64,000 nt of DNA from Clostridium massiliamazoniense (GTDB lineage Bacteria; Bacillota; Clostridia; Clostridiales; Clostridiaceae), in NCBI RefSeq assembly GCF_001403635.1, contig NZ_LN879466.1, positions 274,254 through 338,253 on the forward strand, read 5' to 3'. Made by a program: the position numbers and the translations under genes. The notes under the pieces were generated by a model that saw only the letters and a list, made by a program, of their open reading frames with translations, did no database searches and was not told the origin of the DNA. Below, in pieces: positions 16,973 to 53,994 of the stretch. Position 1 is the stretch's first letter, and each line of letters starts with the position of its first letter.

Positions 16973-17106
16973 TTAAGTGGTTGTATCAAATCAGCCACTT
17001 AATTCATATTACAGCTTCTTTACGTAGGTGAGTGGTCACAAATGATGAACCTATATAGCTAGATAAAAGGCAGAGAGGATGTATCGGTAATTTGATACAT
17101 CCTCTT
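16973..17106 (+). repeat. Intergenic repeat family, copy A (internally deleted)
   Basis: It starts with ggttgtatcaaatcagcca and ends with the hairpin gaggatgtatc / gatacatcctc. The two ends contain the inverted sequences gtatcaaat and atttgatac. It retains the module cttctttacgtaggtgagtggtcacaaatgatgaacc but lacks the central hairpin modules of copies D and G. Its end hairpin overlaps the stop codon of the convergent HAD gene, so it may terminate both transcripts. Confidence 0.85.
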
Positions 17107-17761
17107 AATTATTTAAAAGTTCTTCAAATGAGTTAATATATTTATGAGATGCTTTAATTAAAGCTTCTTTTTGATGTTCAGCAGCCTTATCATATACAGA
17201 GATTACTTTCATTTCAGCTTTTTTAGCACCTTCTACAGCTGGAAGTATATCTTCAAAAACTATGCATTCTTTTGGGTTTATTCCTAATCTTTCTGCTGCA
17301 AGAAGATAAACGTGAGGATTGTCCTTACCAAATTCTACTTCACTGGTCATTGTTATACTATCAAATAAGTCAAGGATTTCATTTGATAGTAAACAAGCTT
17401 CTAAAAGTTCCTTGGAGTTACTAGTAGCTAATGCTATTTTAATACCTTTTTCTTTTAGATACATTAAGAATTCTTTTGCAAAAGGTTTTAATTTAACCTT
17501 TGTGCTATATTGATCAAAGGCCATCTCATGCCATCTATTACATATAAGTTCAACAGAATCTTCTATATTAAATTTATTTTTAAAATATTCACCAGTTTGA
17601 GTGAAACTCAAATGATTTATTTCATCCTTTAATTCCTTTAAGTCAACAGGGTCAGCGCCTATTTCCTTTAAATAATCAACATCTATTTGTTCCCAAACCC
17701 ACATTGAATCTACAAGTGTTCCGTCTAAGTCGAATATAGCCCCTTTAATATCTTTTAACAA
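17105..17761 (-). CDS. HAD-superfamily hydrolase (beta-phosphoglucomutase/phosphatase-like)
   Basis: This 218-residue protein is a subfamily I HAD enzyme that dephosphorylates or isomerises a small phosphorylated metabolite. Motif I DLDGTLVDS gives nucleophile Asp11 and acid/base Asp13; motif II is LATSNS; motif III Lys lies in EFGKDNPHVY; motif IV is VFEDILPAVEGAKKA. An alpha-helical cap lies between motifs I and II. The specific substrate is not evident. The start is TTG 17761, with RBS aggaggt at good spacing. Confidence 0.88.
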   Translation of the reverse strand: MLKDIKGAIFDLDGTLVDSMWVWEQIDVDYLKEIGADPVDLKELKDEINHLSFTQTGEYFKNKFNIEDSVELICNRWHEMAFDQYSTKVKLKPFAKEFLMYLKEKGIKIALATSNSKELLEACLLSNEILDLFDSITMTSEVEFGKDNPHVYLLAAERLGINPKECIVFEDILPAVEGAKKAEMKVISVYDKAAEHQKEALIKASHKYINSFEELLNN

Positions 17762-17923
17762 TCTTATGATACCTCCTAGTGTTAATTTATCTAATTTACT
17801 TAAAATGGTTTAGCTTTATTATAATACAAATTTGAAGTTATTGAAAAAGGAATTTCCTTAGTATATTATTAAATAAAATAGTATAAATTCTTACTTTATG
17901 GAAATAATATGAAATAAGATTTT

Positions 17924-18053
17924 TATCTGATAGCTAGAGGATGTAATATTCCTATCTTCTATAAGTAGGAGATAAACAGTCTCGAGCTTCTAGATAACTT
18001 TGACTAAGCATTCAGATGGAGTCAAAACTCCACCTGAATTAGATCTACGTTTA
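17924..18053 (-). repeat. Intergenic repeat family, copy B (partial, inverted)
   Basis: Reading the minus strand from 18053, it matches the aaacgtag...ttaattcaggtggag...tccatctgaatgcttagtc...tctcctacttatagaag...cagataa order of copies D and G. The terminal terminator module is absent. It is followed by an 11-bp hairpin (18051-18083) with a T-run. Confidence 0.75.
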
Positions 18054-18128
18054 TTATTATGATAATTTTTTACATAATAATAAGTTTTTAAAGATACAGA
18101 TGATATTCTTTTACAGGAAGTGATTAAC

Positions 18129-18248
18129 ATGAAGATAATATTAATAGGTCTTGGAATATGGGCAGTTTTAGTTTTAGGGTTCATGTCCTTATTTAAAGCT
18201 GCAGCAAGAGGGGATAAACTTATGGAGGAGTTAGAGAGTAAAGAATAA
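18129..18248 (+). CDS. Small single-pass membrane protein (39 aa)
   Basis: The reading frame runs MKIILIGLGIWAVLVLGFMS to ...LMEELESKE and encodes 39 residues: one hydrophobic helix (about 3-21) and a charged amphipathic tail. The RBS aggaag lies 8 bp upstream, and a strong terminator follows at 18286. The lone position with its own RBS and terminator supports a real gene. Function is unknown. Confidence 0.6.
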   Translation: MKIILIGLGIWAVLVLGFMSLFKAAARGDKLMEELESKE

Positions 18249-18285
18249 AGAAGAAAAAGTTTTATACTAATGAGAAAAGCAAGAT

Positions 18286-18339
18286 GAGCATTTATAAAGA
18301 GAAAATAATTTTCTTTTATAAATGCTCTATTTTGTTTTA
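18286..18339 (+). terminator. Terminator after the 39-aa gene
   Basis: gagcatttataaaga pairs with tttataaatgctc through a stem continued by gaaaa/ttttc, with a T-rich tail (tattttgtttta). Confidence 0.85.
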
Positions 18340-18496
18340 TTTGTATAATATTTCGAGGTTCTATGAGCCGAAGATAAAAAAATATAGTACCTATTATAAA
18401 AGTTTAATTTGTTTTAATGGATTACCCTAGAATAGAATTATTTTAATTTTAAACTAATATATTATAAAGATGAATAATATAAGGGTTTGAGATATT

Positions 18497-19765
18497 ATGA
18501 AAGATGTTTTTATTTTAGTAACTATAAAAAAGGAAGATTTAAATGTTCATAATAAATTAGGTGACTATAAAAAAATTTTATGCAAGAAGATGAGAGGATT
18601 TTTAAATAATAATGATGTAAGTAATGAAATATTGGAAGAACAGTCTAATATAGATTTAAATTCAGATATGAAATGTTTTATGGATATAGAAATAAACAAT
18701 TGTTCTCATAAGGGAGGAGTAGAGATTTTTTCTCCTAAGATAGCGAATAAATCTTATGATTTCGCTAATATATTAGAAAAGTATTTGGGAGATATAGGAA
18801 ATATAAATTATAATACTGTAGATTTTATAGGAAATAAATTACCTTATAGTGTAGCTAAAGTTCATTTGGAAATATATTTAAATGATACTTCAGAAAAAAT
18901 GGATGAGATGTTAGGAGAGATATCAAAAAATATATCTTTGAGCATAGGTGAATACTTAGGTCTTAATATTAATTTAGAGGATAAGGTTAAGTTAATAAAA
19001 GTAATAAATAGCACTAATATAAATAAAAATAAAGCAAAACAGTTTAGCAAAAATATTGGATTGAATGAAAAACTAATGGAATTAATAGATTATTATTGGG
19101 AACTATGTAAAGAACATGGAAATGTAGATCCATTATTAGCTTATGCTCAAGCTATAGTTAATATAAATGAGAAGAAAATAGATTATAATTATTTTAACCC
19201 AGGAGGAATTAAAGATTTTAAATTGAATTCTTCAGGTGTATATGATTATAAAAGATTTACATCATTAAAAGAAGGTGTTAAAGCTCAATTAGATCATTTA
19301 GCTTTGTTTGGAGGAGCTGATGGTTATCCAAAAGCAAATAGTGCTGATCCAAGGCATTTTAAATATTTATTTGGTTCAGGTAAAACTTTAGATGAGCTTT
19401 CAGGAAAGTGGGATAATGATAAAAATTATGGAGAAAAGATATTAAAAATCTATAATGAAATATGTGATTTAGAAAAATTTGAGGATTTTAAAGAAACTAC
19501 TACAAATCTTTTAACCGTGGAATCAAAAGTAGATAAATTTCAGGAAAGGTTAATTGGTATGGGGAATTTATTAGAAAATTTATTTAAGGAATATAGTGTT
19601 TTATATAAAGATTTAGAGGGAATAAGAAAAGATATTTTAGCCTTAAATAAAGAAAAAAGAGAAATAGAAATTCAAAAGGAAGAGCTTGAAAAGAAAATAA
19701 CAAAGCAAAAAAATGTAATAAAGGATATTTTAAATGTAATAGGGGGAAGTCTAGAAAAAAAATAA
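18497..19765 (+). CDS. Amidase_3-like / glucosaminidase-like protein, probably catalytically inactive
   Basis: This 422-residue protein has three parts. Residues about 1-160 follow the outline of a zinc amidase (Amidase_3): FMDIEINNCSHKGGVEIFSP aligns with the usual SIHAN...GVEVYY, and AKVHLEIYLND with the catalytic LVE.GFISN. The zinc His is replaced by Glu. Residues about 195-330 resemble clostridial glucosaminidase domains (NPGGIKD, EGVKAQLDHLALFGGADGYPK, DPRHFKYLFG, LSGKW), but the usual catalytic ETG segment reads NIN. Residues 345-415 are a coiled coil. No signal peptide is present. I infer a cytoplasmic or non-catalytic relative of cell-wall hydrolases; the role is unknown. Start ATG 18497 follows aaggg at 11 bp. 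Confidence 0.65.
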   Translation: MKDVFILVTIKKEDLNVHNKLGDYKKILCKKMRGFLNNNDVSNEILEEQSNIDLNSDMKCFMDIEINNCSHKGGVEIFSPKIANKSYDFANILEKYLGDIGNINYNTVDFIGNKLPYSVAKVHLEIYLNDTSEKMDEMLGEISKNISLSIGEYLGLNINLEDKVKLIKVINSTNINKNKAKQFSKNIGLNEKLMELIDYYWELCKEHGNVDPLLAYAQAIVNINEKKIDYNYFNPGGIKDFKLNSSGVYDYKRFTSLKEGVKAQLDHLALFGGADGYPKANSADPRHFKYLFGSGKTLDELSGKWDNDKNYGEKILKIYNEICDLEKFEDFKETTTNLLTVESKVDKFQERLIGMGNLLENLFKEYSVLYKDLEGIRKDILALNKEKREIEIQKEELEKKITKQKNVIKDILNVIGGSLEKK

Positions 19766-19767
19766 AA

Positions 19768-19858
19768 GTGGTTGTATTATTTAGCAGAAGATTCCTAAAA
19801 ATTATCGATTAGCAACGAATGAATTTTTAGGGATCTTCTAACTTTTACACAACCACTC
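19768..19858. repeat. 91-bp long inverted repeat (hairpin)
   Basis: agtggttgt pairs with acaaccact at the ends, and agaagattcctaaaaatt pairs (with one bulge) with aatttttagggatcttct inside. The outer gtggttgta resembles the start of repeat copy A. It lies between convergent genes (amidase-like + strand, tRNA-Pro - strand) and may terminate both or be a small non-autonomous element. Confidence 0.6.
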
Positions 19859-19884
19859 TTGGGTATTAAAATGTTCTGCAAATG

Positions 19885-19914
19885 AAAAAAGAATTGCATT
19901 TGCAATTCTTTTTT
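19885..19914 (-). terminator. Terminator of tRNA-Pro
   Basis: agaattgca / tgcaattct hairpin flanked by six A and seven T directly abuts the 3' end of the tRNA. Confidence 0.9.
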
Positions 19915-19990
19915 TGGTCGGGGTGACAGGGCTTGAACCTGCGACCTCATGCTCCCAAAGCACGCGCGCTCCCATCTGCGCCACACCCCG
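19915..19990 (-). tRNA. tRNA-Pro (TGG)
   Basis: On the minus strand: acceptor cggggtg/caccccg, anticodon arm cgtgc-tttggga-gcatg with anticodon TGG, T arm ggttcaagccc, and encoded CCA. 76 nt. Confidence 0.95.
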
Positions 19991-20170
19991 AAGACAATAT
20001 TAATTATATACTGCTTATAGAATATTGTCAACATAAAAAATAAAATTTTTCTTAAAAACTTAAATATTTGTTGAAAGTTAGGTTAACATAATAGATTGAT
20101 TAAAAGGATTAGTGTTATAAGTTTGAGTGAAGTTTGAAGTTAGAATAGTGGTTTTTCCATAAAAAAGATA

Positions 20171-20200
20171 TTGTTCAACGTTTACTTTAGATGATATAAT
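20171..20200 (+). promoter_or_regulatory. Promoter of the NlpC/P60 gene
   Basis: -35 TTGTTC (20171-20176), 18-bp spacer and extended -10 TGATATAAT ending at 20200. It leaves a leader of about 65 bp. Confidence 0.65.
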
Positions 20201-20272
20201 AAAAATATCTTGTTTTGAAAATATTGGAAAGGGGGGCCTTTTAGTTTTAATTCTAAGAGGTATAAAGTATTT

Positions 20273-21505
20273 ATGAAAAGGAGATTAATTTCAGGAGTAA
20301 TTGTAGCATCTATGTTACTAGGAACTAGTTATCCAGCCTTTGCTACACCTTCAGAAGAAAATAGTAAAGTCGAGGATGTAAGAGGACAATATAAAAGTGT
20401 AATTAATAAAATTGATGATTTAAATTCTAAAATTGATGATATTAATCAAAAAATGGAACCAGTATTTTTTTCTATTGAAAATAATAAGGAAAAAATAGCC
20501 ACTATTGAAAGTCAAATAGCAGATAGTAATAAAAAAATAGAACAATCTAAAAATGAGATTAAAGAGAAACAAAAAATATTAGATAATAGATTAAGAGAGA
20601 CATATAAATCTGGAACTAAAACTAGTTTTTTAGCTATGTTATTAACTTCTAGGAGTATGAGTGAGTTTTTAGGTAATATAGAGGCTATTGGTAGAGTAGT
20701 TTCATTGGACAAAGCAGTAATAGAAGACTTAGGGAATAAAAAAGAAAAATTAGATAATCAAATAAAGGATTTAAATAATCAAAAGGATTCAGTTGCTAAG
20801 TTAAATGAAGAAAATGAAGTTAAACTAAAAGAGTTTACTGAAATGAAAAGTAGAGAAGAGATTTTACTAAATGAGTTAAAAACTGAAAAGGACAGTATTG
20901 GTGATAAATTAACTGACTTAGAAAGATCTTTGGTGGCAAGCAAAATATCTACAATTAAAAGTTCTAATAGTACAGTTGAACAAATAAGAAATGCTATAAA
21001 TGAATTAAGTGTATTAAAGTCACAAATTATAAGTAGTAAAGTAGAAGAGGAAATAAATAATGCCATAAGTGAGGGCAGGGATGCTATAAATAAAAAAGAA
21101 GAGGTACAAAGTGGAAGTGGACAAGGGTCAGGAAGCCAATTAGTACAACCTTCAGGAAATGCTAGTGGATTAATATCCTATGCTTATCAATTTGTAGGCA
21201 AAAGATATGTTTTAGGAGCTACTGGTCCAGATGCTTTTGATTGTTCGGGCTTTACACAATTTGTTTTTAGAAAATTTGAATATAATTTAACGAGAACAAC
21301 TTATACTCAAGTTAATCAAGGGACTTATGTACCTAGAGACCAATTAAGACCAGGAGATTTGGTGTTTACAGAGGGACCACCATCTTCACCAGGGCATGTT
21401 GGAATTTATGTAGGTAGTGGTCAAATGGTTCATGCTGCAAATCCTAGAAAAGGTGTAATTGTAGGACCAATATATAATTATTCAACAGCTAGGAGAATCA
21501 TGTAA
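20273..21505 (+). CDS. Secreted NlpC/P60 peptidoglycan endopeptidase with coiled coil (CwlO/PcsB-like)
   Basis: This 410-residue protein has a signal peptide (cleavage likely after PAFA, residue 25), a long coiled-coil region (about 30-270), a Gly/Ser linker and a C-terminal NlpC/P60 domain (about 295-410). Catalytic Cys lies in FDCSGF, His in GHVGIYVG, and a third polar residue in the following HAANP segment. It should cut D-glutamyl-diaminopimelate or similar stem-peptide bonds outside the cell. Homologues of this architecture (CwlO, PcsB) are activated by FtsEX, and ftsEX is encoded at 41306-42884. The nearest SD-like aagagg is about 12 bp before ATG. Confidence 0.92.
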   Translation: MKRRLISGVIVASMLLGTSYPAFATPSEENSKVEDVRGQYKSVINKIDDLNSKIDDINQKMEPVFFSIENNKEKIATIESQIADSNKKIEQSKNEIKEKQKILDNRLRETYKSGTKTSFLAMLLTSRSMSEFLGNIEAIGRVVSLDKAVIEDLGNKKEKLDNQIKDLNNQKDSVAKLNEENEVKLKEFTEMKSREEILLNELKTEKDSIGDKLTDLERSLVASKISTIKSSNSTVEQIRNAINELSVLKSQIISSKVEEEINNAISEGRDAINKKEEVQSGSGQGSGSQLVQPSGNASGLISYAYQFVGKRYVLGATGPDAFDCSGFTQFVFRKFEYNLTRTTYTQVNQGTYVPRDQLRPGDLVFTEGPPSSPGHVGIYVGSGQMVHAANPRKGVIVGPIYNYSTARRIM

Positions 21506-21557
21506 AGTAAGGTTTGCTTAGATTATTAATTTTATTTTTATAAATATATTTCTTTAT

Positions 21558-21617
21558 CTACCGAGATAGCTAGATAAAAGGCAGAGAGGATGTATCTGTA
21601 ATTCGATATATTCTCTT
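21558..21617 (+). repeat. Intergenic repeat family, copy C (3' end only)
   Basis: ccgagatagctagataaaaggcagagaggatgtatctgtaatt matches the last module of copies D and G; the terminal arm has decayed to cgatatattctctt, which weakens the hairpin. Confidence 0.75.
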
Positions 21618-21632
21618 AAAGTTTCATTTTAA

Positions 21633-21675
21633 AAGGGGATATACCAATCTACTATGGAAGGTTGGTATATCCCCT
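21633..21675. terminator. 15-bp perfect hairpin, possible terminator
   Basis: aaggggatataccaa pairs perfectly with ttggtatatcccctt around a 13-nt loop. There is no strong T-run on the plus strand. It could end the NlpC/P60 transcript with repeat copy C or be a processing structure. Confidence 0.45.
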
Positions 21676-21789
21676 TAATGATTTGAGGGGGAGTTTTAGT
21701 TTAAAATAGTGAAAAGGACTTTAATAAATTATATGTTATAATTATAAAATGTGTGAAAAAAATATAATAATAGAAAGGTGGTTTTAATT

Positions 21790-22545
21790 TTGACGTTGGA
21801 TAAAATGGATATGTCTTTGGTGAGAGAAGATGAAAGTTTAGATGATTTACAATTAGATGGAATACATATAATTCAAAAAAAAGAAGGCTTCAGATTTGGA
21901 GTAGATGCAGTATTGCTAGCTAATTTTGCTAATGTAAAATCTAAACATAATGTTATAGATTTATGTACAGGAACAGGAATAGTACCTTTAATTATAAAAG
22001 GAAAGAAAAAACCAAAATCAGTTATTGGAGTGGAAATACAAAGCGATTTTGTTGAAATGGCTAATAGAACGAAAAAAATAAATAATTTTGGGGATGATAT
22101 AAATTTTATAGAGGGAGATTTAAAGGATGATACTTTAATTAAGTCCTTAGAGAAGGCTGATGTAATAACAGTTAATCCTCCATATAAATTACAGAATGCA
22201 GGTATAGTGAATCCAACTGATAAATTATCTATAGCTAGACATGAAATCATGTGTACTTTAGAGGATGTTATAAAAACAAGTAGAAAATTATTAAAGGATA
22301 ATGGAAGATTATATATGATACATAGACCTGAGAGACTTGCGGATATATTTTGCTTAATGAGAAAATATAAAATTGAACCTAAAAGAGTAAGAATGATTCA
22401 TCCTAATAGTAAAAAAGCACCTAATATTGTTTTAGTAGAAGGACAAAGAGATGGAGGAGCATTCTTAAAGTGGGAGCCAGCTCTTTTTGTTTATGATGAT
22501 GAAGGAAATTATAGTCAAGAGATAAATGAAATATACGGAAGGTAA
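21790..22545 (+). CDS. tRNA1(Val) A37 N6-methyltransferase-like protein (TrmN6/YabB family)
   Basis: This 251-residue SAM-dependent methyltransferase has the SAM loop DLCTGTGIVPLI (about 60-71) and the amino-methylating motif NPPY (about 133-136), as in the TrmN6/YfiC and Bacillus YabB group. The N-terminal FRFGVDAVLLANF is also diagnostic. It should methylate an adenine in tRNA. I favour TTG 21790, 8 bp after aaaggtgg; a GTG at 21778 lies on that RBS. It precedes rsmI, as yabB precedes yabC/rsmI in Bacilli. C-terminal residues contain the LVEGQRDGG segment of this family. Confidence 0.88.
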   Translation: MTLDKMDMSLVREDESLDDLQLDGIHIIQKKEGFRFGVDAVLLANFANVKSKHNVIDLCTGTGIVPLIIKGKKKPKSVIGVEIQSDFVEMANRTKKINNFGDDINFIEGDLKDDTLIKSLEKADVITVNPPYKLQNAGIVNPTDKLSIARHEIMCTLEDVIKTSRKLLKDNGRLYMIHRPERLADIFCLMRKYKIEPKRVRMIHPNSKKAPNIVLVEGQRDGGAFLKWEPALFVYDDEGNYSQEINEIYGR

Positions 22546-22619
22546 GAGTTTAAATTAGTTGAGCAATGAAATAGAGAGCTGTGAAGGCAGTTTAATTATT
22601 AGGTAAGGAGAGATAAAAA

Positions 22620-23459
22620 ATGGGAAAGATATATTTAGTACCTACACCTATAGGTAATTTAGGTGATATAACATTAAGAGCATTAGAAGTTTTAAAGAGT
22701 GTAGATATAGTTGCAGCAGAAGATACAAGACAAAGTTTAAAGCTTTTAAATCATTTTGAAATAAAAAAGCCTCTAATAAGTTATCATATGCATAATGAAC
22801 AAGGTAAAGGCGAAGAATTAATAGAAATGGCTAAAGGTGGAAAAAACATAGCAGTAGTAACTGATGCGGGTACACCAGGAGTATCTGATCCAGGAGAGAT
22901 AGTTGTTAGAAAGGCTATTGATAATGGAGTAGAAATAGAAGTTTTACCAGGAGCAACTGCTTTTACAACAGCTTTGGTTTATTCTGGACTTAGTACTAAT
23001 CAATTTATGTTTAAAGGATTTTATCCTAGAGAGAAAAAAGAGAGGATTGCTTTTTTAGAAAATATAAAAGATAGACAGGAAACTATAATATTATATGAAT
23101 CTCCATATAGAATAATTGATTGTTTAGGCTCTATTAAAGAAAATTTAGGAAATAGAAGAATAGCAGTTTGCAGAGAATTAACTAAATTACATGAACAAAT
23201 AGTAAGAGGAACTATTGAAGAGGTTATTAATTATTTTATTGAAAATACACCTAAAGGAGAATTTGTTTTAGTTTTAGAAGGGAAAACTAAAGAGGAAATA
23301 GAAATAGAAAAAAAATCTGAGTGGGAAGATTTAACTATAGAAGAGCATATATTAAAATATATGAATAGTGGAGAAAGTAAAAAAAATGCAATGAAATTAG
23401 TAGCAAAGGATAGAGGAATTTCTAAATCAGAGGTATATAAATATTCTTTAGAATTATAA
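22620..23459 (+). CDS. rsmI: 16S rRNA (cytidine1402-2'-O)-methyltransferase RsmI
   Basis: This 279-residue enzyme 2'-O-methylates C1402 of 16S rRNA, in the ribosomal P site. The tetrapyrrole-methylase-like fold shows the N-terminal YLVPTPIGNLGDITLRAL, the AAEDTRQSLKLL segment, and SAM-binding VVTDAGTPGVSDPG and VLPGATAFTTAL. Length is standard. RBS ggagag lies before ATG. It follows the tRNA methyltransferase gene by 74 bp, forming a small RNA-modification unit that ends at a bidirectional terminator. Confidence 0.96.
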   Translation: MGKIYLVPTPIGNLGDITLRALEVLKSVDIVAAEDTRQSLKLLNHFEIKKPLISYHMHNEQGKGEELIEMAKGGKNIAVVTDAGTPGVSDPGEIVVRKAIDNGVEIEVLPGATAFTTALVYSGLSTNQFMFKGFYPREKKERIAFLENIKDRQETIILYESPYRIIDCLGSIKENLGNRRIAVCRELTKLHEQIVRGTIEEVINYFIENTPKGEFVLVLEGKTKEEIEIEKKSEWEDLTIEEHILKYMNSGESKKNAMKLVAKDRGISKSEVYKYSLEL

Positions 23460-23467
23460 TAATATAA

Positions 23468-23508
23468 ATAAAAAATCACTTCTTTATTAAGAAGTGATTT
23501 TTTTTATT
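23468..23508. terminator. Bidirectional terminator between rsmI and abrB
   Basis: aaatcacttctt-TATT-aagaagtgattt, flanked by A-run and T-run. Confidence 0.92.
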
Positions 23509-23519
23509 TATATGGTTAA

Positions 23520-23759
23520 TTATTTTTTTAATTCATCTAAACAATTTTTGCAGATGTTTTTACCTTTGTAGTTAACAACATCTCTTGCATCTCCACAGAA
23601 AATACAAGCTGGCTCATATTTTTTTAATATTATTTGTTCACCATCTACATATATTTCTAATGCATCTTTTTCTGCGATATCTAATGTTCTTCTTAATTCT
23701 ATAGGAATAACTATTCTTCCTAATTCATCTACTCTTCTTACTACACCTGTTGATTTCAT
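23520..23759 (-). CDS. abrB: Transition-state regulator AbrB family
   Basis: This 79-residue protein has the swapped-hairpin DNA-binding domain (STGVVRRVDELGRIVIPIELRRTL, residues 3-26), nearly invariant in AbrB/SpoVT, and a C-terminal CxxC...CxxC knuckle (CIFCGDA...NICKNC) seen in clostridial AbrBs, probably binding a metal. It represses post-exponential functions. ATG 23759 has a strong RBS (ggagga, 6-7 bp upstream); an ATG 39 bp further up adds 13 residues not seen in the family. A Spo0A-box-like site lies at the expected repression position upstream. Confidence 0.93.
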   Translation of the reverse strand: MKSTGVVRRVDELGRIVIPIELRRTLDIAEKDALEIYVDGEQIILKKYEPACIFCGDARDVVNYKGKNICKNCLDELKK

Positions 23760-23790
23760 CGTTTTTTCCTCCTTGCAAACAATATCATCT

Positions 23791-23839
23791 TTCGACAAAA
23801 TATATTATAATACTAACAAAGTTGACATAATAAGTCAAC
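23791..23839 (-). promoter_or_regulatory. abrB promoter with Spo0A box and upstream dyad
   Basis: On the minus strand, TATAAT (23804-23809) is followed, at about +1, by TGTCGAA (23791-23797), the 0A-box consensus. Upstream lies the dyad gttgac-N7-gtcaac (23821-23839). In B. subtilis, phosphorylated Spo0A represses abrB by binding just downstream of the start point; the layout here matches. No good -35 at 17 bp is seen. Confidence 0.6.
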
Positions 23840-24517
23840 AGTTTTTATTAAAAAAAAATTAAAGAATTTGTTATAAAATTACTTTAAATATATTATATAT
23901 AAAATATACTACCAATTATTTCAAAAGTCAATAATATTTTTACATATATTGTTTAATTAATATCTTTATTGTAAAAAAAGATATAATAGTAAAAAAACAA
24001 AACAAATTAATGTATATTTTTATAGGAAAAAATATATATAAATAGCATATTATTAAATATAAAAAAGTAAAATATACATAAAAAGGATATTGTACATAAT
24101 ATATTATATGTAAAAAACTAAAAATGGTGTGTTACTAGTAAATATGTACAAAAAATAAACGGAATTTCTTTAATTTTGGATTAAAAGTTAAATTTTTATA
24201 TAAATTACATTTATATTATTTCATTAGCTCATGAAAGTATACATAATTTAATTAAAAAAATTTTTAAGGATAAATTAAAGTAAGATTGGGAATAATTAAA
24301 AATAAATAATAAGTCTAAAAATTTTTTAACTGGAATATACGAAGTTGCTTTGTTTTTTTATATTAATAAAATAATAATAAATTATTTAATTTTTATGAAT
24401 TATTCAAAAAAATAGTGAAAAAATAGCATTAATGGGAATAAAGAATAGAAAGTAACTTGTAATGTGATTTTTTTTACTATATAATATTAGTATAGTAAAT
24501 TACAATGAGGTGTAACT
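23840..24517. other. Very AT-rich 680-bp intergenic region
   Basis: Almost entirely A/T, with no open frame, tRNA or repeat that I can support. A -10-like tataat (24480-24485 area) and RBS tgaggtg precede the DUF1836 gene. It may be bent or regulator-binding DNA between abrB and its divergent neighbour. Confidence 0.5.
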
Positions 24518-25111
24518 ATGAGTGTAAGAAAAATAGATGAAAATTATGTTATGGAATTAGCTGAGGAAGTTTCAAAAAATAATACTGTTACATATGATGA
24601 GTTACCACAATATGATTTATTTCTTTCACAAGTAATAGATTATTTAAATGATAAATTTAGTGATGAAAAGTATACAAATAATATAGTTCAAAATTATATT
24701 AAAAGCGAAGTAATTTCTAAACCAGAAGATGGTAAAAAAAGAGGATATACTAAATTACATCTAGCACAATTAGTTCTTCTAAGTTACATGAGACCAGTTT
24801 TAACAACTGAGGAAATAAAAAAGGTTTTTAGTTTAGTTTTTAATGATATTAATAACCGTGAAGATGATATAATAAGTTGGGAAGAAGCTTATGAAATATT
24901 TTCAGATGTTCAAGAGCATAGTTACCAAGAAATATTTGCATCACATATATTTAATGAAGAAAAGGTAAATAAAACCATAAGCAAGCTTAATTTAGGAGAA
25001 GAAGACAATGAAAAAATAAAATTATTTGTGTTAGTGATGTCTTTAGTTTTTCAAGCAAGTATTATTAAAAAAATGGTCAGTAAAATAGTAAATGAAAATT
25101 CAGAAGATTAA
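24518..25111 (+). CDS. DUF1836 family protein
   Basis: This 197-residue cytoplasmic protein matches the clostridial/lactobacillar DUF1836 outline: an N-terminal partially helical region, the YIKSEVISKPEDGKKRGYTKLHLAQL segment, which resembles a MerR-like wing-helix, and a helical C-terminus. By that resemblance it may be a DNA-binding regulator, but no function is known. It has a good RBS (gaggtg) and is followed by a hairpin and a small membrane peptide gene. Confidence 0.75.
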   Translation: MSVRKIDENYVMELAEEVSKNNTVTYDELPQYDLFLSQVIDYLNDKFSDEKYTNNIVQNYIKSEVISKPEDGKKRGYTKLHLAQLVLLSYMRPVLTTEEIKKVFSLVFNDINNREDDIISWEEAYEIFSDVQEHSYQEIFASHIFNEEKVNKTISKLNLGEEDNEKIKLFVLVMSLVFQASIIKKMVSKIVNENSED

Positions 25112-25114
25112 TTA

Positions 25115-25160
25115 AAAAATCCCTCTTAATGAATATATAAATGTTAAGGGGGGATTTTTT
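25115..25160 (+). terminator. Terminator-like hairpin overlapping the RBS of the YvrJ-like gene
   Basis: aatccctcttaa pairs with ttaaggggggatt, followed by six T. The 3' arm contains the G-run that would be the Shine-Dalgarno of the gene starting at 25161, so folding would hide it. Confidence 0.6.
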
Positions 25161-25301
25161 ATGGATTTTTTAATTGAAACTATAGCCAATGTAGGATTTC
25201 CAATAGGAATAAGTATTTATCTTTTAATAAGAATAGAAGGAAAACTTGAAAATCTTACAACGAGCATAGAAAAGTTATCACAAACAATTGTAGAAAAATG
25301 A
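25161..25301 (+). CDS. YvrJ-family small membrane protein (46 aa)
   Basis: The frame begins MDFLIETIANVGFPIGISIY and contains RIEGKLENLTTSIEKLSQTI. The NxGFPIxxSIYLLxRIExKLExL pattern is that of the YvrJ family, seen in Bacilli and Clostridia: one membrane helix and an amphipathic tail. Related peptides also resemble phage holin-like accessory peptides. A G-rich SD sits 6 bp upstream, inside the terminator hairpin. Role unknown. Confidence 0.75.
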   Translation: MDFLIETIANVGFPIGISIYLLIRIEGKLENLTTSIEKLSQTIVEK

Positions 25302-25366
25302 AATAAAATTTGAAACTTACCTCGATTAAGAGTTAGTATGAATTTATTATTTAAAAAATGGGAGAA

Positions 25367-25592
25367 GGGGTTGTATCAAATAAGTCACTTAATTTATATT
25401 ACTTTTATAAACGTAGACTTAATTCAAGAGGAGTTTTGACTCCATCTGAATGCTTAGTCGCAGTTATCTAGAAGTGTGAGACTGTTTATCTCCTACTTAT
25501 AGTATCAGATAAATGTACTTTTCATCTGCCGAGATAGCTATATAGCTAGATAAAAGGCAGAGAGGATGTATCTGTAATTTGATACATCCTCT
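25367..25592 (+). repeat. Intergenic repeat family, copy D (near complete)
   Basis: Order: ggttgtatcaaat end; acgtagacttaattca-hairpin-tctgaatgcttagtc; tctcctacttatag; cagataa...catctgccgagatagc; agataaaaggcagagaggatgtatc-hairpin-gatacatcctc. Inverted ends contain gtatcaaat and atttgatac. It lies 3' of the YvrJ-like gene. Confidence 0.88.
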
Positions 25593-25713
25593 TCTTTGTA
25601 AAAGGAACTTCTATTCTTTTCACTACTAAGAAATTTTCTATAATTAAATCAAGGATTTAAATAATCATTTAAAATAATTTTTAATTAGAAAGGAAGAACT
25701 TTTGTACTTAAAA

Positions 25714-26601
25714 TTACTGATGGATTGTAACAGAGTAAGTACATGAGAATTCTTTATTAGTTGAAAGTGATAAGACCCCTTCTTTTTCTTTAAAATCTTC
25801 ATTAAAGTTTTCGTAATCAGCATGTCCAAACCAAGGTTCAATACAAACAAAAGGAGCTCCTTCTTCAGGTGCCCATAAACCTAGATATGGGAAATCAGTG
25901 AAATTAAATTCTATAAACTTATTATGATTTTTAGACTTTAAATTTATTATATTTGATTTTAATTTATAACTTTCAAAAACTAAAGCGTCATTAGCAAATA
26001 ATTCTTTTGATAAAGGAATTTTATTTTCATCATTTAAAAATTCTTTTCTTTCTCCAGTAAATAATCCATTACTAGTATTTAAAAGCATTATAGTAGCATC
26101 TTCTTTTTCATTAAATTCAAAGTAGTAATCATTTAAGTTTTCATTTTCTAGTATTGGACACATATAAGCTGGATGTGCACCTATAGAGAAGTATATTGTC
26201 TGATCATCTAAATTTTTAACTATATAGGATATTTCAATTGTTGAGCCTATAAGAGTATATTTTACTATTAAAGAGAATTTAAAAGGATATATATTTAGGG
26301 TTTCTTCAGAATAGTCTAGCTTATAACTTAAGCTATTTTGAGTTTCTTCAATTAATTCAAAGTCATTTAATCTTCCTAGGCCATGCTGTGGTAAGGAATA
26401 AGTTTTATTATTAACTTTATAAGTGTTATCTTTAACTTTACCTACAATAGGGAAAAGAATAGGAGCATGATATTTCCAAAAATCAGGATTTCCATTCCAT
26501 AAAAATTCTATATTTTCTTTTTTTCCTTTTATACTGTGAAGCTCAGCTCCATGAGTATTAGCAACTATTTTTAAAAAATCATTTTCCAAGATATGAGACA
26601 A
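25714..26601 (-). CDS. Aldose 1-epimerase family protein (LacX-like)
   Basis: This 295-residue beta-sandwich sugar mutarotase-like protein shows the GAELHSIKGK start and HAPILFPIVG, LPQHGLGR (catalytic-site His), IGAHPAYMCP (second active-site His) and the acidic CIEPWFGHAD segment near residue 265. It probably interconverts anomers of a hexose or hexose phosphate, as LacX/YeaD-type proteins do. It is monocistronic and not linked to sugar catabolic genes here, so the substrate is unknown. ATG 26601 is preceded by a G-rich RBS (aagggtg). Confidence 0.9.
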   Translation of the reverse strand: MSHILENDFLKIVANTHGAELHSIKGKKENIEFLWNGNPDFWKYHAPILFPIVGKVKDNTYKVNNKTYSLPQHGLGRLNDFELIEETQNSLSYKLDYSEETLNIYPFKFSLIVKYTLIGSTIEISYIVKNLDDQTIYFSIGAHPAYMCPILENENLNDYYFEFNEKEDATIMLLNTSNGLFTGERKEFLNDENKIPLSKELFANDALVFESYKLKSNIINLKSKNHNKFIEFNFTDFPYLGLWAPEEGAPFVCIEPWFGHADYENFNEDFKEKEGVLSLSTNKEFSCTYSVTIHQ

Positions 26602-38875: not shown

Positions 38876-38926
38876 TATAGATAATTATAGATTGTTATTG
38901 TAATAAGATATAATTTAAATAAGATA

Positions 38927-39175
38927 GAGGATGTATCAAATTACAGATACATCCTTTCTGCCTTTTATCTAGCTATATAGGTTCATTATTTGTGATCACT
39001 CACTTATGTAAAGAATCCCTAATACTCCTATATTCTATAAGTAGGAGATATAAATAGACTTAGGCCTCTAGATAAGTGGAACTAAGCATTCAGATGAGAT
39101 TTAAAACTCCACCTGAATTAAGTCTACGTTTATAAAAGTAATATAAATTAAGGTACTGTTCAATTTGATATAATC
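38927..39175 (-). repeat. Intergenic repeat family, copy E (near complete, inverted)
   Basis: In minus orientation it contains the same order as copy D plus the cttacgtaa...gtgatcac...atgaacctatata module. Its terminator hairpin (gaggatgtatc...gatacatcc) sits nearest the transketolase stop, 50 bp away. The other end (ttgatataatccc) is decayed. Confidence 0.85.
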
Positions 39176-39364
39176 CCTATTTTAATATAAGTAAATTTTC
39201 TTTTGCAATGGATAGATAAATAATTTAAAATAGAACTGTTATCAGTAGTATATAACAATTACTTTAAGAATATGTCAATGTTTTTTACTAATTAAGTTAA
39301 AAGGTAAAGTATTGGCTAGTTTATAAAATAAATTAAAATTAAATAAAACAAAAGAGGAGAAGAA

Positions 39365-40210: not shown

Positions 40211-40227
40211 TATAATAATTAAATTTT

Positions 40228-40268
40228 GAAAATAATAGTATAGAGTAATTCTATACTATTATTTTTTT
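40228..40268 (+). terminator. Terminator between the YitT paralogues
   Basis: aataatagtatagaat-type stem: atagtatagag-TAATT-ctatactat followed by tattttttt. Confidence 0.8.
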
Positions 40269-40303
40269 GTTAGAATTATATAATTTTATTTTAGGAGGAA
40301 CTT

Positions 40304-41149
40304 ATGAGTAGAGATTTTATGAGGAAATATAGTTTTATAACATTAGGTGTAATATTAGAAGCTATTTCACTACAATACTTTTATTATCCTAATAAGATAA
40401 TAAGTGGAGGAGTATCTGGTTTTGCACTTATTATTAGTGAGTATTTACCTATATCACCAGGTATGTTTATGAATATAGCAAATGTAGTTTTATTTATAAT
40501 AGCTTATTTTATAATGGGAAAGAGATTTGTTTTAGATAGCATATATGCTTCTTTTGCTTTATCTTTAGTATTACTTGGATTTGAGAAGTTTTTACCACCC
40601 TATGTAGTAACTAATAATCAACTTCTTGTTACTATATTTGGAGGTGCTATTGGAGCAATAGGAATGGCTTTGTCTTTTAATGAAGGTTCATCTACAGGTG
40701 GAACATCTATAATAGCTCAAATAATGAATAAGTTAACCCATATAGAGGTAGGAAAATCTCTTTTAATAGCAGATGGAGTAGTTATTATTTTAGCTATTTT
40801 TTCTTATGGAACAGAAAGAGGATTATATGGTTTATTAGCTTGTATAACTACTGGATTATTGACAGATAAATTTATAGAAGGTTTTAATAATTGTAAACAA
40901 TTAATGATAATAAGCAGTAAAATTTCAGAAATAGAAGATTTTATTATAAATAAAATAGATAGAAGTTCTACAAGAATAATTGGAAAAGGTTCTTATTCTA
41001 AGAAGGAAGTAGTGATTTTATATGTTGTAGTTCGTAAAAAACAATTTATTGCATTGAAGAAAGCAATGAAGGAAATTGACAAGGATGCATTTATTATCGT
41101 AAGTGAAGCTAAAGAGGTTCTTGGGGAAGGATTTAAGGATTTGGAATAA
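40304..41149 (+). CDS. YitT family membrane protein, paralogue 2
   Basis: It is the same length (281 residues) and architecture as paralogue 1, with matching SGGVSGFALII, NEGSSTGGTSIIAQIMNKLTHIEVGKS and SEAKEVLGEGF. The two are easily aligned end to end without gaps. A terminator and a separate RBS (taggagga) suggest independent expression despite adjacency. Confidence 0.93.
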   Translation: MSRDFMRKYSFITLGVILEAISLQYFYYPNKIISGGVSGFALIISEYLPISPGMFMNIANVVLFIIAYFIMGKRFVLDSIYASFALSLVLLGFEKFLPPYVVTNNQLLVTIFGGAIGAIGMALSFNEGSSTGGTSIIAQIMNKLTHIEVGKSLLIADGVVIILAIFSYGTERGLYGLLACITTGLLTDKFIEGFNNCKQLMIISSKISEIEDFIINKIDRSSTRIIGKGSYSKKEVVILYVVVRKKQFIALKKAMKEIDKDAFIIVSEAKEVLGEGFKDLE

Positions 41150-48229: not shown

Positions 48230-48272
48230 GAAGAGGGCCGTTAAAACAAAAGAAAAATCATGAGGTGAAAAG

Positions 48273-49082: not shown

Positions 49083-49107
49083 AACATTAAGTATTAACAA
49101 ACTAAGA

Positions 49108-49146
49108 TTTAATTCAGCTAGAGTTTCGGCTCTAGCTGAATTTTTG
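49108..49146. terminator. Bidirectional terminator
   Basis: aattcagctagag-TTTCGG-ctctagctgaatt, with A-rich and T-rich flanks. The outer attcag/ctgaat arms resemble the central hairpin of the dispersed repeat family. Confidence 0.88.
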
Positions 49147-49150
49147 CTAT

Positions 49151-49324
49151 TTAAGAATATTGTTTTAGAAGTTTAATTACTTCTTTTTCACAACGATTTC
49201 CATTACAGTGTCCAGTACAAGCCCCAGTTGCTTTTTTTACAGCTTCTAAAGTATTAGCTCCTGATTTTATAACTCTAATTAATTCATCTCTATCTATATT
49301 ATTACATATACAAACTACTCCCAT
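49151..49324 (-). CDS. Bfd-like [2Fe-2S]-binding small protein (57 aa)
   Basis: The frame starts MGVVCICNNIDRDELIRVIK and includes ACTGHCNGNRCEKEV. CxC near the N-terminus and CTGHC...C in the second half give the four-cysteine CxC-x(n)-CxxxxC-like arrangement of the BFD (bacterioferritin-associated ferredoxin/NifU-central) [2Fe-2S] fold. RBS aaaggaga lies 7 bp before ATG. It is monocistronic and converges on the CPBP gene. Such stand-alone domains hand electrons or iron-sulfur clusters to partners that are not evident here. Confidence 0.82.
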   Translation of the reverse strand: MGVVCICNNIDRDELIRVIKSGANTLEAVKKATGACTGHCNGNRCEKEVIKLLKQYS

Positions 49325-50992: not shown

Positions 50993-50997
50993 TATAT

Positions 50998-51552
50998 TTA
51001 ATCAAGAAATTGATGTTTTAATCTATTGACTACAGGGGATAGTGGTAATGCTATTATTATCCCAAGAATTATTTCAGAGATATCTCCAGGAAAATGAGCA
51101 GCAGCATATAATATACTAGCCCAAAATGATGTTGTAGCTCCAACTATTAGCCTACCAACTATAGCATTTGCTATAAAATAGCCTATAGCAGAAATTGCAC
51201 CACCAACAATAAATGATAATAGATAAATTTTAAAGTTTCTTTTATCAAAAGCATCTAGAACTGCAGCAGCTCCAAGACCCATTAAACCTTGAATAACAAA
51301 ACTAAAAGGAGCCCAATAGGCATAACCTGATGCAAGGTCAATTAACCCCATTCCAAAAGCACCTACTAAAAAGCCTTTTTTCTTTCCTAATAAAACTGCT
51401 GAAAGTAAAACTATACAATCTGCTGGTTGGGCCATTCCATTAAGAGTTGGTACTCTTATAAATGAGCCTATAACGAAGGTGAAGGCTATCATAAGTGAAG
51501 TTAAAATGAGAGCCATTAGTTTTACATTTCTTCCTTTAGATTGACTTTGCAT
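50998..51552 (-). CDS. ECF transporter S component (substrate-binding membrane subunit)
   Basis: This 184-residue protein has six membrane helices. The pattern near the start (GSFIRVPTLNGMAQPADCIVLLSAVLLGKKKGFLVGAFGMGLIDLASGY) fits energy-coupling-factor S components that capture vitamins or cofactor precursors and borrow the shared EcfAAT module, which is not encoded here. I could not assign the vitamin and found no riboswitch upstream. I use ATG 51552, 8 bp after aaggagg; ATG 51558 is only 2 bp away and the longer frame to 51633 precedes the RBS. Confidence 0.85.
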   Translation of the reverse strand: MQSQSKGRNVKLMALILTSLMIAFTFVIGSFIRVPTLNGMAQPADCIVLLSAVLLGKKKGFLVGAFGMGLIDLASGYAYWAPFSFVIQGLMGLGAAAVLDAFDKRNFKIYLLSFIVGGAISAIGYFIANAIVGRLIVGATTSFWASILYAAAHFPGDISEIILGIIIALPLSPVVNRLKHQFLD

Positions 51553-51558
51553 GTTCAT

Positions 51559-51798
51559 TTCCTCCTTAGTAAAAGCACGTATATGTATATATAAATCATA
51601 TAGGTAGGTATAATTAAATGCAAATATACCCATACAATTTATAAAATTTATTTTATTCAGTAATTTAAATAATAGTTTTAAAGAAAATATATTATTCTAT
51701 AAAATATATTTTTAGAGAATAAATTACAAATTATTCATGGATTATATTTCAATAGTTTTAAAAATGAGGAATAAAGGTTAATATTAAATATTTAATAG
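51559..51798 (-). promoter_or_regulatory. Leader region of the ECF S-component gene
   Basis: About 240 bp, AT-rich. A weak dyad ggtata-N12-tatacc (51605-51628) is the only symmetry found. It does not resemble any vitamin riboswitch I know. Confidence 0.35.
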
Positions 51799-51893
51799 TT
51801 TATATTACTTTTATAAGTGTATTTTTTCACCTATATAGCTAGATAAAAAAGAAAAGAGGATGTATCTGTAATTTGATACATCCTCTTTTTTTA
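51799..51893 (+). repeat. Intergenic repeat family, copy F (partial)
   Basis: tatattacttttataa...ctatatagctagataaaa...gaggatgtatctgtaatttgatacatcctc is followed by seven T, making a strong terminator. Middle modules are deleted. A separate minus-oriented piece of the hairpin module (attcagatag...ctgaattaagtct) lies at 51910-51950, next to the dehydrogenase stop. Confidence 0.8.
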
Positions 51894-51961
51894 GATTTTT
51901 TATAATTTTGATTAAAATTCAGATAGAATTTGACTTTAGCTGAATTAAGTCTCAGCTTATG

Positions 51962-52963
51962 CTATGCAAATAATATATTTTTTTCTTTTATTAGAATGTC
52001 TAGAGGAGTTTCTATTCTGTTTTCAATGCCACCTGAATAGAAAGAGTCTATATTACTTAAAACTCCAGAGAATAGTGTTTCTTTTGCTTCAGCACTAAGC
52101 CAAGCACTATGTGGAGTTAAAACAATTTTAGATGGATTATCTAAATGTAAAAGAGGATTATAAGCTTCTATAGGTTCAACTGTGAACACATCCAAAGCAG
52201 CACCACCAATTAAATTTTCATTTAAAGCTCTAGTAAGATCTTTTTCAACAATTATTGGTCCTCTACCTACATTGACTATTAAAGCATCTTTTTTCATCAT
52301 TTTAAGAACTTCATAGTTTATAAGTCCCTCAGTTTTTTTATTAAGTGAAGCATAAATTGAAATTACATCTGATTCTTTTATTAGTTTTTCAAAACTAACC
52401 ATCTCATAAGGAACATCTTGTTTATTTCCTGATGGAGAGTAATATATTACTTTAGCACCGAAGGCATCAAAGACTTTAGCAGCTTGTCTTCCAATATTGC
52501 CAAGACCAATTATTCCAACTGTCTTTCCAAAAAGTTGAGCTGGATTATTATAAGGACTAGCAAAAGTATTTAGTTTAGAAAATTCTCCATCCTTAACGAA
52601 TTTATCTTGAATAACTATTTTGTTCATTAGAGATAAAAGTAGAGCTATACTGTGTTGAGCTACAGTATGTGTTGAGTATCCAGCTACATTAGTTACAGCT
52701 ATTCCTTTTTCTCTAGCGTATTCTATATCGATTATATTAAAGCCAGTAGTCATTTGGCATATTAGTTCTAATTTTTCTGCATGTTCTAAAACTTCTTTAT
52801 TTAGAACTGCTTGAGTATTAATTATTATTTGAGCATCTTTAATTCTCTCAATAAGTTCATCCCTAGATGTTGATTTATATATTTCAACATTTCCATATTG
52901 ATTTAATCTGTTAAAGCAAAAATCGCCCATGACTTTTGAATCTAAAACTACTATTTTTTTCAT
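51962..52963 (-). CDS. D-2-hydroxyacid dehydrogenase (NAD-dependent)
   Basis: This 333-residue enzyme reduces 2-oxoacids (such as glyoxylate or hydroxypyruvate) to D-2-hydroxyacids. The NAD-binding motif is VGIIGLGNIGRQAAKVFDAFG (about 150-170). The active-site triad is visible: Arg in VNVGRGPIIVE, Glu in VFTVEPIE and His in LTPHSAW. The N-terminal catalytic domain includes TGFNIIDIEYAREKGIAVTNVAGYSTHTVAQH. Substrate specificity cannot be read. RBS aaggag is close to ATG. Confidence 0.92.
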   Translation of the reverse strand: MKKIVVLDSKVMGDFCFNRLNQYGNVEIYKSTSRDELIERIKDAQIIINTQAVLNKEVLEHAEKLELICQMTTGFNIIDIEYAREKGIAVTNVAGYSTHTVAQHSIALLLSLMNKIVIQDKFVKDGEFSKLNTFASPYNNPAQLFGKTVGIIGLGNIGRQAAKVFDAFGAKVIYYSPSGNKQDVPYEMVSFEKLIKESDVISIYASLNKKTEGLINYEVLKMMKKDALIVNVGRGPIIVEKDLTRALNENLIGGAALDVFTVEPIEAYNPLLHLDNPSKIVLTPHSAWLSAEAKETLFSGVLSNIDSFYSGGIENRIETPLDILIKEKNILFA

Positions 52964-53048
52964 ATATAAAACTCCTTTTTATTTTTAAATTTAAACCCCG
53001 TTAATCATTAATCAATATAATAGCTAAAAACACTAAACTTAAAAAGGA

Positions 53049-53082
53049 CCACCATAAGGAATTTAATTCTATAAGGTGGCTT
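53049..53082 (-). other. Hairpin upstream of the dehydrogenase
   Basis: ccaccata...tataaggtgg arms (with a bulge) surround ggaatttaattc, itself a palindrome. On the minus strand it is followed by tccttttta. It may be an attenuator in the dehydrogenase leader or a terminator for an unseen transcript. Confidence 0.4.
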
Positions 53083-53228
53083 GTGTTAAAATTATATACT
53101 AAAAAAGCTCCTAGGACTTTAGATAAACTATTAATAATTTATTAAAAAAACAATTATGAAAAGGTTTAATTAAATTTTAATAGAATATATATAGTAGTAA
53201 TTAAATAATTTCAGAAGGGGTAATGTCT

Positions 53229-53552
53229 ATGAGTAATTTATTTTTTCCAGTTATAAATATAAATAACAAAAGCCTAAAAGAATTAGGAAATTTCATTTTT
53301 ACCTATGAGGGGTGTAAATACCCTGGTGGAATTAGAAGAATAAAAGAAAATAGTAGCAAAACAGTTAAATTACCAAATAGTTACTTAGATACAGAGGAAA
53401 AATTAATAATGATATATAGAGATAAAAGTGGAAAAAAGAAAAGGTATATAATAAAGGATTCTTTTTCAAAAAATGATTTATGGAAAATGGATGTAAATGT
53501 TTATGATATTAGTGATTATGGTGAACTTGAATTCAATGTGGCAATAAACTAA
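53229..53552 (+). CDS. Hypothetical protein (107 aa)
   Basis: I do not recognise this soluble protein. It is rich in Lys, Asn and aromatic residues, has no membrane segment or signal peptide, and looks mostly beta-stranded: alternating hydrophobic segments such as NFIFTYEGC, KTVKLPNSYL, KLIMIYRD, KKRYIIKD and WKMDVNVYDI. Two ATG codons are possible (53223, 53229); aagggg is best spaced to the second. It lies alone between the dehydrogenase and a large repeat copy. Confidence 0.65.
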   Translation: MSNLFFPVININNKSLKELGNFIFTYEGCKYPGGIRRIKENSSKTVKLPNSYLDTEEKLIMIYRDKSGKKKRYIIKDSFSKNDLWKMDVNVYDISDYGELEFNVAIN

Positions 53553-53564
53553 TTATTGATAAAG

Positions 53565-53994
53565 ATGGGGCTATATTAAATCAGCCCCTTAATTTATATT
53601 ACTTTTATAAACGTAGACTTAATTCAGGTGGAGTTTTGACTCCATCTGAATGCTTAGTCGTAGTTATCTAGAAGCGTGAGGCTTTATCTCCTACTTATAG
53701 AAGAGAGGAGTATTACAGCCTCTAGCTATCAGATAAGTGTATTTTTTCATCTGCCGAGATAGCTATATAGGTACAAAATGCTGTGACCATTGAACTAGTA
53801 GTAGAAGCTCTTTATTTTTGAACAATAGTTTCGTGAAAAATTTTGATTGTTTGAACAAAGTGAGTTTAGAAATTTTAGAAACTGTTGTAGAAAAAATATT
53901 AGAGCTTCTTTACGTAAGTGAGTGGTCACAAGTGATGAACCTATATAGCTAGATAAAAGTCAGAGAGGATGTGTCTGTAATTTGATACATCCTC
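53565..53994 (+). repeat. Intergenic repeat family, copy G (longest, with nested inverted repeat)
   Basis: It holds the complete module set of copy D, plus about 190 bp at 53762-53950 flanked by imperfect inverted arms of about 45 bp: ctatataggt...tgtgacca...gaagctct on the left, and tagagcttc...agtggtcaca...aacctatata on the right. The end hairpin (gaggatgtgtc...gatacatcctc) and T-run close it. It lies 3' of the 107-aa gene and 3' of the small minus-strand gene. Confidence 0.85.

Follow-up and report, generated by a model that had tools for sequence, protein, structure and literature searches.

The dispersed, hairpin-rich intergenic repeats in a 64,000-nucleotide stretch of the Clostridium massiliamazoniense genome (contig NZ_LN879466.1, positions 274,254 to 338,253; the whole stretch is referred to as the window) are two families, a small two-hairpin element (the core) nested in a second hairpin-rich repeat (the host repeat). 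The core is a real, mobile, structured and widespread element that resembles palindrome-associated transposable elements (PATEs) and REPINs by its mode of insertion. Its insertions are precise and lie immediately before ATAAA (on the other strand, 3' of TTTAT), and the target is not duplicated. We hold with about even confidence that the core is a non-autonomous element, that it transposes after recognition as a folded single strand, and that a Y1/HUH enzyme likely moves it in trans.

Two nested repeat families in the window

The core is approximately 130 nt long, folds into two hairpins (the ATTCAG hairpin and the one with the TCTCCTACTTATAG arm) and, as read in the window, extends from ATAAACG to CAG/ATAA, the slash marking the junction here and below; two window copies are intact and two are damaged (Table 1). 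The host repeat consists of a left hairpin with GTATCAAAT, a long hairpin (D-E) and a terminal GAGGATGTATC hairpin, and it contains a core in three of its six window copies. A pattern for the terminal module, with up to three mismatches allowed, matched five times in the window and never in 100 shuffles, which is far above chance.

The first-pass annotation had described one ordered set of modules at eight intergenic sites. Repeat sequence is present at all eight (each was read, and the repeats were computed), and copies occur in both orientations and in deleted forms as it had stated, but the common order was too strong a claim, holding for three sites and not for the remaining five. The left GTATCAAAT-type module occurs together with both the terminal hairpin and the ATTCAG-hairpin core only at 25365, 38921 (minus strand) and 53565. 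The copy at 17924 (minus strand) is a core without host repeat that stops exactly at CAGATAA, the copy at 6794 is for the most part a decayed first hairpin, and the copies at 16973, 21558 and 51799 are host repeat without any core. Core copies were scored with R1, a covariance model built from 18 copies taken from the window and from a survey set of 206 genomes of one family (that of G002, read as Clostridiaceae); these source copies match by construction. At a limit of E 1, R1 matched the window 15 times, in several cases as antisense shadows, and the best of the weak matches beyond the sites already listed are two possible decayed cores (Table 1).

The nesting is visible in a pair of host repeats. 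The copy at 51799 reads TTTTATAA/GTGTATTTTTTCA, whereas the copy at 53565 reads TTTT[ATAAACG...CAG]ATAAGTGTATTTTTTCA, with the core in square brackets; the former is thus empty and the latter filled, and the core is therefore an insertion within the host repeat. As the core begins at the identical host position at 25365, 38921 and 53565, the composite was probably copied as a unit rather than formed by three insertions. This insertion into the host repeat deviates from the target rule given below (ATAAG). The four window cores share 69–91% pairwise identity, two carry large deletions, and the window copies look old. A single-family reading was rejected, since core and host repeat separate at the empty site and only the core is widespread.

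Ends, target and empty sites of the core

The ends were compared in 78 copies with 77 distinct flank pairs, a set that left out 20 of 98 hits (nine were repeats from overlapping loci, ten scored low or lay antisense, and one was L047). At the right end 76 of the 78 copies finish with GATAA, and the next base is A in 75; at the left end 52 copies start with ATAA and 23 with ATCA. The left flank is near background, none of its 15 positions exceeding 0.45 bits. By eye, the termini (ATAAAC../..CATCGG) form no terminal inverted repeat. The inverted pair GTATCAAAT and ATTTGATAC that had been taken as the ends does exist; it lies in the host repeat and does not form the ends of the widespread core, again by eye.

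Two insertion places in one intergenic region of three genomes, one shared by G022 and G011 and the other used in G038, provide reciprocal empty sites with precise junctions. At the first, L056 reads aaga[..]ATAAatgag and L040 reads aagaATAAatgag, and the situation is reversed at the second position. The copies at these sites start with ATCA rather than ATAA, and therefore no target duplication accompanies insertion at either site in the three genomes. Tandem arrays are also found in which neighbouring copies share ATAA (L051 and four pairs in G181), as expected if the left-end ATAAA of one copy acts as target for the next.

Fold of the core

The two core hairpins are unlike each other and occur in a fixed order. 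In an alignment of 55 distinct copies drawn from the 78 above, 90.4% of the cells of a 47-pair structure were paired, compared with 80.0% in shuffled and at most 43.6% in slid versions, the structure having been derived from one of the copies, which favours the real over the slid versions. Cells in which both sides had changed numbered 266 against 82 in shuffled versions, bearing in mind that related copies exceed shuffles more easily. These compensatory changes support the fold. Folded as DNA, the bottom strands of three copies were each better than all 200 shuffles.

Some copies carry extra sequence, mostly in the hairpin 2 apex. Longer or odd forms occur at L046, L047, L048, L054, L058, L123, L131 and L133, several of them sharing an insert, GAAAAGCAGA...CGCTTTCACA.AGTGCG, mostly in that apex; the insert may represent an earlier version of the core or yet another nested element.

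Distribution, recent copies and gene context

A search of the survey set with R1, in which the best 16 or fewer candidates per genome were scored under stricter filters, resulted in matches in 95 of the 206 genomes at E 0.001, some through a single weak match. Copies were counted up to 150 per genome, and all counts are lower bounds: 65 in G187, 82 in G105, 142 in G136, 80 in G013, at least 150 in G181, 39 in G182, and 17–87 in nine further genomes. The density in G181 reaches approximately one core per 22 kb or denser. The R1 searches were confined to this family. A DNA search of the same genomes, with the best three candidates scored per genome, gave matches in 31, mostly to the core. Of the results that the first-pass annotation had named as refuting its account, neither a lack of copies elsewhere nor a lack of empty sites occurred for the core.

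Relatives were reached through a penicillin-binding-type protein, for which the best identity was 60%, to an uncultured Clostridium; the DNA query was unmatched in all seven genomes of the G001 genus, the closest relative by this protein. The 53565 copy and an L057-type core had no match in plasmids or phages, an L040-type core had none in plasmids, and two exact core patterns had none in viral contigs, leaving spread by plasmids or phages unsupported. No core matched an Rfam 15 family at the gathering threshold in the window or in three loci with intact copies, where the sole match was to a TPP riboswitch in another part of L139; under relaxed settings nothing but matches of unrelated kinds came up, all of them below threshold. 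No title or abstract opening among those found names this element, and we make no claim that it is unpublished.

Mobility of the core is well supported. In G182, 18 full-length copies are 97–100% identical and have 14 distinct flanks, and sampled copies in G105 (five), G181 (six) and G187 (five) are 95–100% identical. The proposal of a mobile, non-autonomous, structured repeat is thus borne out by the copies in other genomes, some of them near-identical, by the precise ends and by the empty sites, while its single family, inverted ends and target duplication fall away. Three cores in G182 (L185, L187 and L188) have identical flanks, and L185 and L188 each contain a frame from a group that matches an IS110-type transposase; these three cores may have ridden on an IS110-type insertion sequence (IS).

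Among 77 distinct copies, 49 lie between codirectional genes, 16 between divergent and seven between convergent genes, and five are inside a gene or not callable. The core therefore does not follow the placement just after genes that had been reported from the window, as there is no preference for gene ends, and a terminator role for the core was rejected because convergent sites are not in excess. Genes can be interrupted: a Mg-chelatase/comM-type gene in G013 (Pfam PF01078 and PF13335) carries two core insertions and its frame is restored if the cores are omitted, and L121 holds a third clear-looking interruption. The labels comM, YD/Rhs and IS605 are our reading of the frames, save where a Pfam match is given. 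At the G013 locus (L094, also recorded as L268) a short RAYT frame runs into the truncated gene with the two cores, and a dprA-like gene (Pfam) comes after it.

The host repeat

The 53565 copy, 436 nt with core and host repeat together, folds at -160 kcal/mol, 12.7 standard deviations below 100 shuffles, and the portion after the core alone gives a z-score of -10. The D-E module forms one long imperfect hairpin in this fold, and the deleted forms are therefore, in our reading, mostly losses inside D-E.

The host repeat seems special to the window genome. Searches of the 206 genomes, in which the best three or four candidates were scored per genome, gave two short partial matches (G072 and G184), one of them only to the palindromic terminal hairpin; G184 had also matched this hairpin in the first DNA search. 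The exact terminal-module pattern had no match in genome contigs or viral contigs. Short AT-rich matches to the left module (approximately 25–58 nt) in G033, G034, G046, G064, G166, G174 and G177 weigh against a strict restriction to one genome.

The suggestion that the element supplies terminators applies, if at all, to the host repeat and not to the core, which shows no preference for gene ends. In a pattern scan of positions 16900–26000 and 51600–54300, the terminal hairpin fitted a terminator consensus at three sites (Table 1). That the host repeat acts as a mobile bidirectional terminator is possible but doubtful, as the evidence is a consensus scan over six host-repeat copies.

Proposed mechanism and alternatives

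On the strand opposite to that printed, the core presents two end hairpins and no genes: the left hairpin is large and begins exactly where the element is inserted, and the right one is smaller and stops a few bases short of the other end. On this strand the core follows TTTAT directly (on the printed strand it precedes ATAAA), with the target left unduplicated, and an internal TTAT can pair with the target ATAA, closing the large hairpin across the junction. We infer that the core is recognised as a single strand, guided by this pairing, and that it is likely mobilised in trans by a Y1/HUH enzyme from the IS200/IS605-RAYT superfamily, much as a PATE or a REPIN would be. In the window genome, one core landed in an unrelated hairpin repeat, and the composite would then have spread to three or more places before decaying.

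Y1 genes are carried by 161 of the 206 genomes. The short RAYT class (cut at about E 1e-55) was compared with core presence, giving p 0.041 for any match and 0.16 for at least 10 matches, with no kinship correction. In a set of 19 genomes from which two or more copies were sampled, the five whose best pair reaches 98% identity all have Y1 genes and none of the nine genomes without Y1 reaches it (Mann-Whitney p 0.036 for best identity, from uneven sampling of best-scoring copies in related genomes and likewise without kinship correction); with 161 of 206 genomes carrying Y1, this association is weak. Thirty short-RAYT loci contained a core in three cases: L268, which is the same place as L094, a locus found by BLAST; L253, where the core lies 76 nt upstream of the RAYT frame; and L271, where the core overlaps the 3' end of the frame. 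Twenty further short-RAYT loci and twenty longer RAYT loci contained none, and R1 was absent from sets of 56 and 22 Y1 loci including up to 1.5 kb on each side (L094, known to hold two cores, being excluded). Adjacency was thus found in three of 50 short-RAYT loci against none of approximately 87 other Y1 loci (one-sided p 0.047), which is marginal at best.

A number of results weigh against a Y1 enzyme as the engine. The Pfam family PF01797 does not track the core, which is found in 76 of the 161 genomes with Y1 and in 19 of the 45 without (p 0.61); ten genomes with at least 10 scored core matches have no Y1 match; and G105 and G187, with near-identical sampled copies, are without the short RAYT. 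No core was detected within up to 1.5 kb of the approximately 87 other Y1 loci, a part of all Y1 places with some overlap between sets, and copy density alone would give three RAYT-adjacent cores with a probability of 0.03–0.12. A lagging-strand mechanism leads one to expect an orientation bias, and none was seen by chromosome arm in six genomes (10–36 listed copies each, origins not located). Across 113 loci no copy was autonomous and no neighbour gene recurred convincingly; the largest neighbour group, an ABC-ATPase-like frame in 10 loci, was taken as chance or family abundance, and an IS110-type gene (Pfam PF01548) neighbours the core in three. No IS sharing the ends of the repeat, as the first-pass annotation had envisaged, was found among the Y1 loci examined. 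Five clostridial IS605-like tnpA copies (L153, L157, L158, L166 and L169) have a left end that follows TTTAAC and differs by eye from the core; their left-hairpin tip, CTTCTATAAG or close to it, resembles the hairpin 2 tip of some cores, which is a lead only, as the remainder and the target TTTAAC differ. With a partner searched for and not found, the Y1/HUH reading therefore rests on the junctions and the folded ends.

The lack of Y1 tracking, of an autonomous partner and of an orientation bias would also suit movement by a non-Y1 agent, a recombinase of another kind or an RNA-level route, with the internal TTAT guiding the core to ATAA. The closing pairs TTATC/GATAA are nearly invariant and four of the six pairs of that helix never vary, in keeping with such a guide; by the same token, a TTAT/ATAA pair so nearly fixed leaves covariation unable to demonstrate guiding, for this agent or for a Y1 enzyme. 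No candidate enzyme was found, and duplication-free junctions with end hairpins are typical traces of Y1 elements, by established knowledge and by the accessible part of PMC7290912, so that we regard a non-Y1 agent as unlikely, although not negligibly so. Its stronger form, a family-wide element that chooses its site by TTAT-ATAA pairing and is moved in trans by a non-Y1 enzyme or RNA route, would be a new mobilisation system and is improbable.

The very strong compensatory evidence, the mostly intergenic location and the DNA folds that beat every shuffle in three copies could also point to a functional RNA (a structured leader, 3' untranslated region element or small RNA) that was multiplied incidentally. 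Single-strand DNA recognition predicts such a fold just as well, however, and near-identical copies at different places in one genome, insertions within coding frames, tandem copies sharing ATAA, and the lack of a preferred gene context or of an Rfam match at the gathering threshold make a primarily RNA-level function rather improbable. Least probable of all is the classic case of a single family of miniature inverted-repeat transposable elements that derive from a DDE insertion sequence, have inverted ends and duplicate their target. Both orientations, deleted forms and the 9-bp inverted GTATCAAAT pair of the host repeat recall such an element, but the core has neither inverted ends nor duplication, which already contradicts this origin for the core, and the two families part at the empty site with only the core being widespread; the host repeat itself may have such an origin.

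Relation to known repeat systems

PATEs are ends-only derivatives of the IS200/IS605 group, which is without inverted ends or target duplication according to the accessible part of PMC7290912. On that description the core resembles them in being short and gene-free, in having a hairpin at each end and no inverted ends, and in inserting beside a fixed short target that is not duplicated. It differs in that no parent IS sharing its ends was found among the Y1 loci examined, in its target (TTTAT, whereas the five IS605-like tnpA copies in these genomes follow TTTAAC, by eye) and in its very high copy number across many genomes.

High copy number, mostly intergenic location, hairpins and the lack of plasmid, phage or viral-contig matches also recall REP/REPIN sequences and their RAYT (TnpA-REP) proteins. 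The core is, however, two unlike hairpins in approximately 130 nt, while REPs are 20–40 bp palindromes tagged GTAG or CGTC (PMC3733652, as far as its accessible text describes them), the core is not a regular neighbour of RAYT genes, and it lacks the two inverted copies of one short REP palindrome that make up a REPIN. GTAG or CGTR strings stand at the inner-stem foot in some copies, by eye only. The accessible part of PMC6006769 names Clostridia under RAYT subclass 1.1 and describes subclass 2.1 as without REP-like neighbours, and neither Clostridi nor Firmicutes occurs in the main text of PMC3733652 in its accessible form. The core is not assigned to PATEs or REPINs because the defining partner was looked for and not found.

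Clop-1 of C. perfringens (93 nt, 44 copies) and Clot-1 of C. tetani (74 nt, 19 copies) are stem-loop families described in the accessible part of PMC2267715. Like the core they are intergenic, structured, multi-copy Clostridium repeats; the comparison is by description only and leaves the core related or unrelated to them. The same source describes BOX and RUP of Streptococcus pneumoniae, also intergenic multi-copy repeats. The modularity in the window comes from the nesting of two families and from deletions in long hairpins, not from reiterated modules. BOX and RUP themselves are of modular build.

A structured mobile element that occurs in close to half of the genomes sampled from a family shapes intergenic regions and can break genes, and it may surface in transcriptome or small RNA surveys as an unexplained conserved RNA. 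Caution is called for with dispersed RNA motifs, since even one that covaries strongly can be mobile DNA. What moves REP-like DNA in Firmicutes can be tested directly on this element, given its near-identical copies, sharp ends and reciprocal empty sites.

Coordinates and other features of the window

Table 1. Copies of the core and of the host repeat in the window, with the evidence for each.
Feature	Position	Strand	Evidence
Core, intact; left end ATAAACG, right end CAG/ATAA, next base G	53607..53736	+	R1 117.9 bits; ends compared with 77 other copies
Core alone, intact, outside host repeat	17923..18054	-	R1 112.4 bits; 91% identity to 53607 copy
Core, 3' end deleted; deletion fuses core to host-repeat E module	39000..39133	-	R1 63.6 bits; sequence
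Core, inner part of hairpin 2 deleted	25407..25512	+	R1 59.1 bits; sequence
Decayed core, mainly hairpin 1	6793..6869	+	R1 31.5 bits, E 1.5e-4
Possible decayed core	49097..49176	+	R1 35.7 bits, E 2e-5
Possible decayed core	57584..57695	-	R1 33.2 bits, E 6.5e-5
Longest host repeat: left hairpin, core, long D-E hairpin, terminal hairpin	53565..54000	+	Sequence; fold -160 kcal/mol, z -12.7
Host repeat containing damaged core	25365..25597	+	Sequence comparison
Host repeat containing damaged core	38921..39176	-	Sequence comparison
Host repeat without core (empty site), TTTTATAA/GTGTATTTTTTCA; counterpart at 53565 TTTT[ATAAACG..CAG]ATAAGTGTATTTTTTCA	51790..51892	+	
Host repeat without core: left hairpin, E module, terminal hairpin	16973..17110	+	
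Host repeat, right part only	21540..21621	+	
Terminal hairpin, terminator-like	17073..17106	+	Consensus match only
Terminal hairpin, terminator-like on both strands	51849..51892	+	Consensus match only
Terminal hairpin, terminator-like	53965..53994	+	Consensus match only

Three other features of the window were recorded. Two tRNA genes (3336–3417 and 4425–4506) that are 99% identical and 1.1 kb apart lie just after 23S and 5S genes. Positions 39365–41149 hold tandem genes for YitT-type membrane proteins (281 amino acids, 72% identity over 300 nt), the Pfam family having been tested on the first only. The frames at 10162–16969 share diverged repeats; one has a glycosyltransferase group 1 match and one a teichuronic-acid family match below the cut-off, and from these matches the region is likely a glycosyltransferase cluster.

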